Source: Euryarchaeota archaeon (GTDB lineage: Archaea > Thermoplasmatota > SW-10-69-26 > JACQPN01). Taken from it: a DNA stretch of 64,000 nt. The notes under the pieces are model-generated. The model ran no database searches. It was not told the origin of the DNA and saw only the letters and a program-made list of their open reading frames with translations. Position numbers and translations under genes: made by a program. The DNA lies in contig JACQPN010000025.1 of NCBI GenBank assembly GCA_016207515.1, forward strand, positions 62,001 through 126,000. Direction: 5' to 3'. This document shows, piece by piece, positions 22,764 to 63,587 of the stretch (its first letter is position 1; every line of letters starts with the position of its first letter).

Positions 22764-22842
22764 GCACCCTTTTTGCTCGCCCCGGCTCGCAAAAAGCGCG
22801 CCCGGAAACCGCCGCCAACACCAAACCGCGACCGCGCCCGAA

Positions 22843-22915
22843 TAGCCCCGTCTGGATTCGAACCAGAGTCAAGAGATCCAGAGTCTCCTATGATTGGCCG
22901 CTACACCACGGGGCT
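22843..22915 (-). tRNA. tRNA-Gln (anticodon CTG)
   Basis: Read on the minus strand, the acceptor stem AGCCCCG/CGGGGCT is perfect, the D stem has the archaeal G10-U25 pair, the anticodon stem GGAGA/TCTCT encloses the loop CTCTGGA (anticodon CTG), the variable loop has 4 bases, and the T arm is TCTGG-TTCGAAT-CCAGA. The discriminator is A. No intron and no encoded CCA. The 3' end lies inside a 78-bp repeat copied 110 bp downstream. Confidence 0.93.
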
Positions 22916-60195: not shown

Positions 60196-60266
60196 GGCGG
60201 TTCTGACAAGAGCGTGCACGGGTGATGCTCACGCATCGCCTTTGCTCAAAAGAAGGTAAGAAAACA

Positions 60267-60464
60267 ATGGGACAGTATGGAGACAGGCGCGGTGGCGGCG
60301 GCGGTGGCGGTGGCTTCCGTGGCGGCTTTAGCGGCCCTCGGGAAATGCACGACGCAGTATGCGCAGATTGTGGACAGAAGACGCAGGTACCATTCAAGCC
60401 GACCGAAGGTCGGCCCGTGTACTGCCGCGACTGTTTCGCAAAGCGCCGCCCGGCTCGATTCTAA
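60267..60464 (+). CDS. Small RGG-type zinc-ribbon protein (65 aa)
   Basis: ATG 60267, preceded by AAGGT. Residues 5-25 form a Gly/Arg-rich tract (DRRGGGGGGGGFRGGF), an RGG-type RNA-binding region. Residues 31-60 form a zinc ribbon: C-x-x-C (VCADCG, Cys32/Cys35) and C-x-x-C (VYCRDC, Cys53/Cys56), with the typical internal VPFKPTEGRPVYC. The core is the widespread 'CxxCx-ng zinc ribbon' family, usually linked to cold-shock or ribosome-associated small proteins. A strong promoter and a T-rich tract downstream (60510-60532) suggest a monocistronic, abundant message. Confidence 0.82.
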   Translation: MGQYGDRRGGGGGGGGFRGGFSGPREMHDAVCADCGQKTQVPFKPTEGRPVYCRDCFAKRRPARF

Positions 60465-60509
60465 AGAGCTAGGCGGACAGTAGGCCCCTCCGGTTTGGGG
60501 GGGTTGGTA

Positions 60510-60532
60510 TTTTAGTTTAGATTTTTGGGTTA
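60510..60532 (+). terminator. T-rich tract after the zinc-ribbon gene
   Basis: TATTTTAGTTTAGATTTTTGGG on the plus strand, about 45 bases past the stop codon; an archaeal U-rich terminator without a strong hairpin. Confidence 0.5.
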
Positions 60533-60586
60533 CGGGAACGGCTGTCACACCATTCAACGCGAGGATGCATCTCGATAAGGAGGCAT

Positions 60587-60989
60587 TAAAGGAAAGTGCC
60601 GGGCCCCAGTCGGAGTCCCATGCGTGGACTCGCCCGTCGGCGCGTCCACTATGGCGGCTTGACCTCGAAAGCATGAAGGAAAAGTGACGGGCGGCGCCCG
60701 TGGACTCGCTTCCGCTCGTCCACCACGTCCTCGGCCGCTTCGCGGCCTGCGGCGGTCAGGCCGGGAAAAAATGAAAGGAAAGTGACGGGGACCGGTCAGA
60801 GTCCCCGTCGGGGGGAGGCTGTTTATCAGCTGGAGTACTTCGGGATCGCCACTGAATTGGCGCCGCCGAGGCGTTTTCCGTGCAGGCTTTTGCGGCCGCA
60901 AGGCCGCAAAAGGGTGCGGGTCGGAGGCTGTTGATGATTTGAAGAAGTCGCGGGGGCCCCTCAGCCCCCGCGGCGGCTTTTTCCGTGCA
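60587..60989. repeat. Array of duplicated hairpin modules downstream of ftsZ
   Basis: Five related modules fill the space. Module A (GGAAAAGTGACGGG type) occurs at 60591, 60678 and 60777 with following hairpins; between the first two and after the second lie GTGGACTCG ... CGTCCAC hairpins (60624-60649 and 60701-60724). Module B occurs twice (60814-60884 and 60923-60989, offset 109 bp): both begin GGAGGCTGTT and end TTTTCCGTGCA and enclose different strong stems, for example CGCGGGGGC/GCCCCCGCG in the second. A 10-bp stem TTTTGCGGCC/GGCCGCAAAA (60888-60911) separates them. No protein is credible on either strand. Confidence 0.7.
60763..60809 (-). terminator. Strong hairpin-T-tract terminator within the array
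   Basis: GACGGGGAC/GTCCCCGTC (60784-60792 and 60801-60809, 8-base loop), followed on the minus strand by CTTTCCTTTCATTTTTTCC. It could end the ftsZ transcript or a small RNA from module B. Confidence 0.65.
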
Positions 60990-61043
60990 CGCTGGCGGAA
61001 CCATCCGGTCCCGCCGCGTGCGAAGGCAGAGAACTTCTTGATC

Positions 61044-62156
61044 TTAGTTGATCCAGGGTATCTCGAGGTTCGGCCCGTCCTTCTTGTTCCCGAGCGATTC
61101 GCGTAGCGCCTTTGTCGCCGTCGCTCCGGGGCCGAGGATCTGCGGGCTTTGGACACCGGTCATGATGGCCATGACGCGCATCCTGCCCTCGAAGTCCTCG
61201 TTCACTCGCGCACCCCAGATCACGTTCGCCCGCGTGTCCATGTCGAAGGTCAAGGCCTGGGCGACCTGCTCGGCCGCCTTGAGGCTCAAGTCGGGCCCGC
61301 CCGTGATGTGGAGGAGGCACCCGGAGGCGCCCTTGTAATCCACGTCCAGCAGCGGGTGGTTCAAAGCCTCGGACACGACCTTGTTGGGGTCGTTCGACTT
61401 CGCTTCCCCGTAGAGCATGACAGCGATGCCGCCGCAACCCATGATCGTGCGGACATCCGCGTAGTCGAGGTTGATGAGACTCGGTTGCGTGATCGTCTCG
61501 CTGATGCCCTTGACGGTCTCGGCCACGAGCTGGTCCATGACGGAGAACGCCTGGTCGATCGGGAGGTTCGGCACGTACTGGAGCAACCTGTTGTTGTCGA
61601 GCACGATGACAGTGTCCGCTTCCTTCCTGAGCTTGTTGAGGCCGTCCTCACCCTTGAGGAGCCTCGCGCGCTCGACGTTGAACGGTGTGGAGACCATTCC
61701 GATCACGATTGCGCCCTTCTTTTTGGCGATACGCGCCACCACGGGGGCCGTTCCGGTCCCGGTGCCGCCGCCCATTCCGGCGGTGACGAAGACGAGGTCT
61801 GCGCCTTCGAGGAGTTCCTCGATGTACGGCTGGGCCATCTCTGCGCAGCGCTCCGCGACCTCCGGGTAGCCGCCGGCTCCGAGGCCGCGCGTTATCGACT
61901 TGCCGATAAGGAGTTTCTTGTCCGCTTGTATGCGATCGAGGTGCTGTTTGTCCGTATTGATGGCGATGGTCTCAGCGCCCCGGACACCCACCGAGTGCAG
62001 GCGGTTTATCGTGTTGTTGCCCGCTCCTCCGCAGCCCACGATGACGATCTTGGGCTCACCGACTCCTTCGAACTCGAAGTCGGTCTCGGTCGTTTGCGCT
62101 TCTTCGCCTTGTGTGTCCGGTGCGTTCTTTATCGCGTTTGTGATCAACGACTGCAT
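61044..62156 (-). CDS. ftsZ: Cell division protein FtsZ
   Basis: FtsZ is the tubulin-like GTPase that forms the division ring. The ATG at 62156 has GGAGG 9 bases upstream, whereas the 62231 frame is only a leader. GTP-binding features: [15 protein letters not shown] (about 38-52), the tubulin signature [10 protein letters not shown] (about 128-137), and [10 protein letters not shown] and DQAF in the T7 loop region (about 195-220). The C-terminus ends in a short peptide EIPWIN. Length 370 is typical of archaeal FtsZ, and acidic N-terminal extension [14 protein letters not shown] is present. The gene is preceded by cdrS-like and a long leader with a stable multibranch fold. Confidence 0.96.
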
Positions 62157-62225
62157 CCCATCTATCCTCCATTTAGGGACGTTGCTCGTCCCGAGAGCCC
62201 GCCCCAGTTCGAGGCGGTCTATCGC

Positions 62226-62327
62226 GCACACACCGCTTGTGAGGTGGAGACGGGTTTGACCCCGTCTCTCCTCGCGAAGCGCGGCATATCAGTAGCCTTT
62301 GAGGGATCTCTCCCTCGGTCTGTGTGC
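62226..62327 (-). ncRNA. Multibranch RNA element in the ftsZ leader
   Basis: A 7-bp closing stem, GCACACA (62226-62232) with TGTGTGC (62321-62327), encloses three perfect hairpins: 8 bp GAGACGGG/CCCGTCTC, loop of 6 (62247-62268); 4 bp CGCG/CGCG with loop AAG (62273-62283); 6 bp GAGGGA/TCCCTC, loop of 4 (62301-62316). All arms pair without a mismatch. It lies between a TATA-like CCTAAAAAGC (62393-62402, predicted start near 62370) and the ftsZ start. Being nearly symmetric, it could fold on either strand. No known riboswitch is matched. Confidence 0.5.
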
Positions 62328-62800: not shown

Positions 62801-63095
62801 ATCAAACGACGCCGGGCCGCGAAGCGCTCCCGCCGAAAAAATATCCTCGCGAGATGATATTATCTTTCTAAGAGAGCGAAACAGGAACCGCCATTCCGAC
62901 CACGTCATCGATAACACCATCGCCGTTCGATTCTATCTGTGCATCGGAATGAAATGCCGTTCCAGTGGAAGCGGGGAGCGGCACCGTTTCCGGCGGAGAA
63001 TGACCCAGCGCCCGAACCTCAACACACGGGGAAGCTGCGCCGCGCCCGCGAGATTCTACGTAGACGCGTCTTGGTGATCCGGCTCGAAGCCACGC
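62801..63095. other. Intergenic region
   Basis: No gene is visible. The AT-rich part (62801-62880) belongs to the cdrS promoter; the remainder is GC-rich and unremarkable up to the repeats beginning at 63096. Confidence 0.4.
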
Positions 63096-63138
63096 AACCG
63101 CCAACGGGGACCGACAAGACGGTGTCTTCGAGGTCGCC
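63096..63138. repeat. Repeat Y, distal copy
   Basis: 43 bp (AACCGCCAA...GGGGACCGA...AAGACGG...) repeated at 63282-63324, offset 186 bp, with three mismatches. Each copy contains an inverted repeat, AAGAC/GTCTT or GAAGAC/GTCTTC, with a three-base loop. Confidence 0.85.
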
Positions 63139-63191
63139 GCAGGCGGCCGAACCCGGCGAGGATGGAGTGGAAGCCGAAGGCTTCCACGATA

Positions 63192-63242
63192 CGCCCGCCT
63201 TTGGTGCAGCTTTGGCAAAGATGCAGTCCCGCCTCCCGGATT
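63192..63242. repeat. Repeat X, distal copy of the tRNA-Tyr 3' end and flank
   Basis: 51 bp identical to 63321-63371, offset 129 bp. It includes the last 16 bases of tRNA-Tyr (CCCGCCTCCCGGATT on the plus strand) and 35 bp of its 3' flank. Confidence 0.9.
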
Positions 63243-63281
63243 CTCGACAATTCGCTTCGCTCGTCCCCTTGGAATCCGGAT

Positions 63282-63324
63282 AACCGCCAAGGGGGACCGA
63301 GAAGACGGAGTCTTCGAGGTCGCC
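63282..63324. repeat. Repeat Y, copy next to tRNA-Tyr
   Basis: Adjoins repeat X (63321-63371), so that X and Y form one unit downstream of the tRNA that recurs at 63096-63242 with a 53-bp insertion. Confidence 0.85.
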
Positions 63325-63355
63325 CGCCTTTGGTGCAGCTTTGGCAAAGATGCAG

Positions 63356-63476
63356 TCCCGCCTCCCGGATTTGAACCGGGCACCTCCTGATGACTGCGCG
63401 CCTGCGACGTGCTGATGTCGAAAGACCGTATGTGACTCTACAGTCAGGCGCTCTAACCAGACTGAGCTAAGGCGGG
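63356..63476 (-). tRNA. tRNA-Tyr (GTA) with a 46-base intron
   Basis: On the minus strand: acceptor CCCGCCT/AGGCGGG with C1-G72 typical of archaeal Tyr, D arm GCTC...GAGC, anticodon stem CCTGA/TCAGG, loop CTGTAGA (anticodon GTA) and T arm CCCGG-TTCAAAT-CCGGG, discriminator A. The loop is interrupted after position 37 by an intron of about 46 bases (near 63390-63435), the canonical archaeal position where a bulge-helix-bulge is spliced. A TATA box (CATAAATATGG) lies about 60 bases upstream, at 63533-63543. Confidence 0.93.
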
Positions 63477-63587
63477 TGATGACCACATGGTCTTTTCCCG
63501 GACCAGGGGTCAGCCTCACAAACGACCGACCATATTTATGCTTTCCCAAGGAGAAAAGTCGAGGCGCCTCCCGTTCTCCCAGTCACC

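Follow-up and report, generated by a model that had tools for sequence, protein, structure and literature searches.

The question raised by this locus is what the array of hairpins and repeats behind ftsZ is made of and how it came about. The array lies in the window, by which we mean the whole analysed stretch of 64,000 nucleotides, and occupies a gap of 579 nt (60465-61043) between two convergent genes: a small protein gene that reads as a zinc-ribbon (CxxC..CxxC) protein on the left (60260-60464, plus strand) and ftsZ on the right (61044-62231, minus strand). A modular hairpin array had been proposed for this gene-free gap from the letters alone, and its presence was confirmed. The gap reached a best direct-repeat score of 20, whereas none of 60 dinucleotide shuffles exceeded 13, and it holds four hairpins, compared to a shuffle mean of 0.67 and a maximum of 2. 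In 40 other stretches of the window, the hairpin count averaged 0.65 with a maximum of 3, so that none was higher, whereas at least one of these stretches scored higher for direct repeats (68.5). The array exceeds chance.

Three A repeats are present at 60585-60619, 60673-60707 and 60771-60805, the first being 83% identical to the third across 35 nt and the third carrying a hairpin at 60784-60809 (GACGGGGAC..GTCCCCGTC). While the number of A-type modules given by the sequence-only reading was right, their motif, GGAAAGTGACGGG, is exact in copy 3 only (copy 1, GGAAAGTGCCGGG; copy 2, GGAAAAGTGACGGG), and as a module it has no other occurrence in the genome. The two GTGGACTCG..CGTCCAC hairpins were also found as described, at 60624-60649 (GTGGACTCGCCCGTCGGCGCGTCCAC, detected by pattern search) and at 60700-60723 (GTGGACTCGCTTCCGCTCGTCCAC, with BLAST matches to other intergenic and tRNA-flanking copies); we refer to them as F1 hairpins a and b. 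To their right, on the plus strand, the first B repeat (60813-60872), with left part GGAGGCTGTT.. and an inner stem of its own, is followed by F2 hairpin a (60873-60917; GTTTTCCGTGCAGGCTTTTGCGGCCGCAAGGCCGCAAAAGGGTGC), which has a perfect inner stem of 11 bp. The second B repeat (60920-60977), with a 9-bp hairpin at 60949-60972, is followed by F2 hairpin b (60978-61021), a variant of the form TTTTTCCGTGCACGC-TGGCGGAACC..GGTCCCGCC-GCGTGC. Composite F2 copies at C5 and C21 (G000:C5:27243 and G000:C21:139.3 kb) have a first half that corresponds to this last hairpin, and its TTTTTC(C/T)GT..GCGGAACC half recurs in them. The array signals run beyond the end first assigned to them, to about 61021.

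Known families of repeats or RNAs do not account for the gap. Its A repeats diverge by at least 17% and are spaced 88 and 98 nt apart, unlike CRISPR, and a search of Rfam returned no match for the gap at gathering score and only chance-level matches at E values up to 5, in agreement with the earlier statement that the array is unlike RNase P or SRP RNA. The gap was compared by BLAST with its own genome (2.67 Mb, 25 contigs). This revealed partial copies elsewhere, and reading them gave the two dispersed hairpin families F1 and F2; the A and B repeats, including the left end shared by the two B copies, are absent elsewhere in the genome.

F1 is a GTGGACTCG-loop-CGTCCAC hairpin, which on the opposite strand shows facing GA dinucleotides in the stem. 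By pattern search, it has eight exact matches in the genome, compared to none for the reversed-pattern control, and no matches in four relatives of the same order. Six of the eight copies lie within 300 nt of a tRNA gene (p=1e-10). Upstream of a tRNA-Gln gene (L256:2600-2990, on G000:C18), we also observed tandem units composed of the first 12 nt of the tRNA, an F1 hairpin and the complement of the acceptor strand; these units resemble tRNAs with a hairpin in place of the body, and an integrase gene lies directly downstream.

F2 consists of GTTTTCCGT followed by a hairpin of the form NNAC-G-CTTTT(T)-variable stem-(A)AAAAG-G-GTNN, or, in a shorter form of the consensus, TTTTCCGT-NNAC-G-CTTTT-variable stem-AAAAG-G-GTNN; the 5' flank is conserved, as is a G.G mismatch within the stem. 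Pairing of the outer stem amounts to 98% across 11 divergent copies, and slid controls fail. Three stem pairs show changes on both sides, with GC/CG exchanges at the two outermost pairs, and covariation reached 0.298 compared to 0.109 in shuffled alignments (0/500). The inner stems are wholly different between copies, yet they pair. Judging from these alignments, the F2 stem is maintained by compensatory change. Like those of F1, the genome-wide counts of F2 rest on pattern searches: CTTTTN{8,28}AAAAGGGT gave 19 matches, almost all of which fold back, compared to three for reversed-pattern controls, and about 20 copies are present in the genome. Elsewhere, the pattern was found once in G001, three times in G002 and as one clear copy in G016, and a stricter version occurred in 11 of 390 Thermoplasmatota genomes with zero control matches. 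Among viral contigs of IMG/VR, four matches were obtained, three of which are apparent chance matches without a fold; the fourth contig (L379) carries a true tRNA-F2-tRNA-end unit, although chimeric assembly may have linked this unit to the phage genes. No description of F2 was found in the literature as far as our incomplete coverage reached.

These families bear directly on the proposal that the B modules represent a tandem pair of small RNA genes whose ends are conserved. Both modules do share their ends, with a common left part of 22 nt (77%) and a common right part of 26 nt (85%), and differ in their inner stems, as had been noted; the structural covariation of F2 would also suit an RNA. 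However, the common right end is the start of F2, which is dispersed in many contexts, whereas the common left end occurs nowhere else, and neither an Rfam match nor a promoter was identified. The modules are two copies of the dispersed F2 hairpin plus a local repeat, and we consider a pair of small RNA genes very improbable. Conservation of a module in relatives, which that proposal had entailed, holds for the F2 structure in the 11 of 390 genomes; A and B are local.

Comparison of the same gap in relatives did not recover the array either. A conserved small RNA behind ftsZ was considered and rejected, as most downstream regions are without such hairpins, and the orthologous gaps showed no recognisable conserved array. 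Among relatives of the same order, G004 has a serial repeat of its own behind ftsZ (GGGGGAGACTGGCTTTCGA), unrelated to the array in the window and without a recognisable F1 or F2. In this independent array (L215:1230-1445), four GGAGACTGGCTTTCGA-like repeats recur at intervals of about 53 nt, their hairpins vary, and a short GGAGRCTG resemblance was noted.

F2 is strongly associated with tRNA genes. Nine of the 20 copies lie within 250 nt of one (expected 0.2, p=4e-13). At C5, C20 and G016, F2 abuts a fragment of the tRNA 5' half; at tRNA-Phe, tRNA-Gln and others, it abuts the tRNA 3' end. Within the window, an F2 copy on the minus strand (22764-22811) lies between the tRNA-Gln gene (22843-22915, minus strand) and a duplicate of the 3' end of this tRNA. 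Its direct-repeat score is 105, compared to a control maximum of 36, and across the locus (22764-22915) the second copy of the 3' end and its flank ends inside F2. Overall, partial duplicates flank 19 of 51 tRNA genes in this genome (control 0.65) and 6 of 35 in relatives. Elsewhere in the window (62868-63549), the 3' end of a tRNA-Tyr gene that contains an intron is repeated downstream together with about 30 nt of flanking DNA, and hairpins lie between the original and the duplicate.

In three further genomes (G055, G059 and G189), F2 lies inside a tRNA gene, and Infernal aligns the tRNA across it; in the copies from these genes that were read by eye, F2 sits in the anticodon loop as an intron, with its T tract on the tRNA-sense strand. 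In two distant genomes (G253 and G256; L355, L356, L364, L369, L370, L373 and L374), F2 was seen beside apparent tRNA halves in hairpin-rich DNA, which suggests very long tRNA introns or split tRNA genes.

The intron copies weigh against the view that the array serves the two convergent genes, and similar hairpins the tRNAs, as bidirectional or serial transcription terminators, duplicated since strong termination is useful there. This view draws on the convergent arrangement of the gap, on the T tracts that F2 has on both strands, often 3' of a gene in sense orientation, and on the A repeats, which on the minus strand read as a hairpin followed by CTTTCC..TTTTTT. Termination within a tRNA gene would destroy the tRNA, though, and at C23 and C21 F2 lies between promoter-like DNA and the start of the tRNA. 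Occurrence in 11 of 390 genomes is also unlike a terminator, and the recoded gene ends described below are left unexplained by termination. The serial terminators suggested by the sequence-only reading thus do not fit these F2 copies, and we regard this explanation as unlikely.

Many F2 copies are located between two copies of a gene end, with local alignment scores far above cross-locus controls; several have no flanking repeat, and for copies without a nearby direct repeat no second copy was found within about 7-13 kb. Such direct repeats flank F2 at tRNA genes and at protein genes alike. At five protein genes, synonymous differences between the two end copies affect 25 codons and nonsynonymous ones 4 (p=5e-10), with 26 of the 31 changed bases at third positions. 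One of the five reads as the gene of ribosomal protein uS10 in G001; two others of the five appear to resemble those of a sulfite-oxidase-like molybdopterin enzyme and a PAC2-like protein. The uS10 locus (L310:413-713) consists of the gene with a recoded 3' end, the F2 hairpin and the displaced old 3' end. The two copies agree throughout their first ~60 nt; recoding is limited to the last ~30 nt and is entirely synonymous. In G003, a member of the same family, uS10 is uninserted, and its end differs within 33 nt at 6 positions from the displaced copy and at 12 from the functional one. Simple duplication cannot produce recoded ends of this type, but DNA that enters and completes the gene with an end of its own can. 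On these comparisons, F2 between gene-end copies is evidently the signature of an integration that replaces the 3' end of the gene.

If hairpins promoted replication slippage, local DNA would be duplicated in tandem and no mobile element would be needed. Such slippage would account for the exact tandem copies at tRNA-Phe, C19 and G002 and for the strictly local A and B repeats, and some tRNA arrays could be plain tandem duplications. Slippage cannot yield differences that are nearly exclusively synonymous and confined to the last 30 nt, nor can it explain why genes and genomes that are unrelated share one F2 sequence, which makes it improbable as the general explanation.

REP/RAYT and Rickettsia palindromic elements are short palindromes dispersed in intergenic DNA and RNA genes, a description shared by the hairpins seen here. 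A single-strand transposase of the Y1/RAYT type, such as acts on REP or IS200/IS605-derived elements, might have moved F1 and F2 as REP-like palindromes, with the gene-end copies being coincidental tandem duplications. Both families are short intergenic hairpins, and the conserved 5' flank and G.G stem mismatch of F2 recall REP hairpins. Yet a second gene-end copy adjoins F2 time and again, the inner stems of F2 vary completely between copies, and elements of the REP/RAYT type are not known to duplicate or recode gene ends. Gene-end duplication, recoding and fully variable inner stems set F2 apart from these palindromes, and we hold a REP-like origin to be about as improbable as slippage.

Our favoured reading, with a probability of roughly 0.58, is that short mobile hairpin elements piled up behind ftsZ and have since decayed, with F2 entering at gene ends. 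F2 would be a structure-conserved hairpin cassette that enters a locus at a gene end, as in site-specific integration into gene 3' ends; the incoming DNA would carry a replacement gene end together with the hairpin, and the old end would be displaced downstream. Further insertions and local tandem duplications would then build arrays, with tRNA genes as the most frequent sites. For the gap behind ftsZ, this would mean that F2 and the genome-specific F1, each present twice, accumulated together with duplicated local DNA (A and B), after which the array diverged. The gap is read as a pile-up because it holds two F1 and two F2 copies and because the order B1-F2a-B2-F2b is that of repeated units at tRNA genes, where [repeat-flank-F2] occurs twice. 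The sequences themselves show the two families, the association of both with tRNA genes, the gene-end copies on either side and the mostly synonymous divergence of these copies; as to mobility, the reading compares sequences from metagenome-assembled or draft genomes. We infer that a recombinase made the F1 and F2 inserts. These inserts probably travelled as small units and are not what is left of larger elements, and the ftsZ gap presumably formed like other F2 loci, as an old and decayed pile-up. Gene ends were also sought in the gap itself. When both strands of the A and B repeats were read as C-terminal coding sequence, an apparent peptide similarity (LDLESMKEK / LDKEALKES) emerged, but it is out of register with the DNA alignment. 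The differences between the repeats show no synonymous bias, and neither A nor B was recognisable as the end of a gene, so that this assignment was dropped.

The combination of a structure-conserved hairpin with gene-end integration recalls several known systems. In integrons, attC sites are recombination-site hairpins with conserved structure, variable tips and a conserved asymmetry, all of which apply to F2; unlike attC, F2 is accompanied by no recognised integron platform or attC core motif, and it inserts at gene ends instead of an attI site.

Integration into gene 3' ends with tandem accretion of decayed elements follows a known logic (PMC5704250, PMC3146451), exemplified by CIMEs and accretion arrays at att sites, such as the ICE/IME relics of Streptococcus and the ssrA islands of Dehalococcoides (PMC3146451, PMC5704250). 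F2 loci share with CIMEs the direct repeats of a gene 3' end, serial inserts, the loss of integration genes and the replacement of the target end by an incoming copy. Target-end repeats occur on both sides of the insert at many F2 copies, though not at all, and the recoded gene end with a displaced old end is seen at the five protein genes, with the uninserted uS10 of G003 for comparison. In contrast to CIMEs, F2 inserts measure roughly 60-250 nt, and one hairpin is common to many unrelated target genes. The genome encodes five tyrosine integrases, four of which adjoin tRNA genes; no second att copy was found for the tRNA-flanking integrases, and none of the five could be linked to F2. No larger element pairing an integrase with an F2 end came to light, nor did an att-to-att element with F2, a further difference from CIMEs.

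A second parallel is provided by the transposed tRNA introns of Thermoproteales (Fujishima et al. 2010, cited in PMC4090602) and by the mobile element that disrupts a tRNA in Caldiarchaeum (PMC3293823). The likeness lies in similar sequences in several tRNA genes, including the intron position in the anticodon loop, and in tRNA 5' fragments left nearby. F2 differs in not being confined to tRNAs, as it also occurs downstream of protein genes and in the gap behind ftsZ; the array in the window is not inside a tRNA gene, in contrast to the F2 copies of G055, G059 and G189.

A broader and more tentative idea, which we think possible but rather doubtful, is that F2 represents a new family of miniature mobile cassettes of Thermoplasmatota. 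The recombination site would be a folded single-strand hairpin with a variable tip, and each cassette would bring its own recoded gene end, so that many tRNA and protein genes could be entered without harm, even as introns. If the favoured reading of the array as an accumulation of integrated hairpin elements is right, F2 would represent a route by which archaeal tRNA genes gather fragments and introns, and essential genes such as uS10 would tolerate insertion, with the insert providing a synonymous replacement end. It would caution against calling such hairpin arrays small-RNA genes, and F2 would serve as a searchable marker for a little-noticed class of small mobile DNA.
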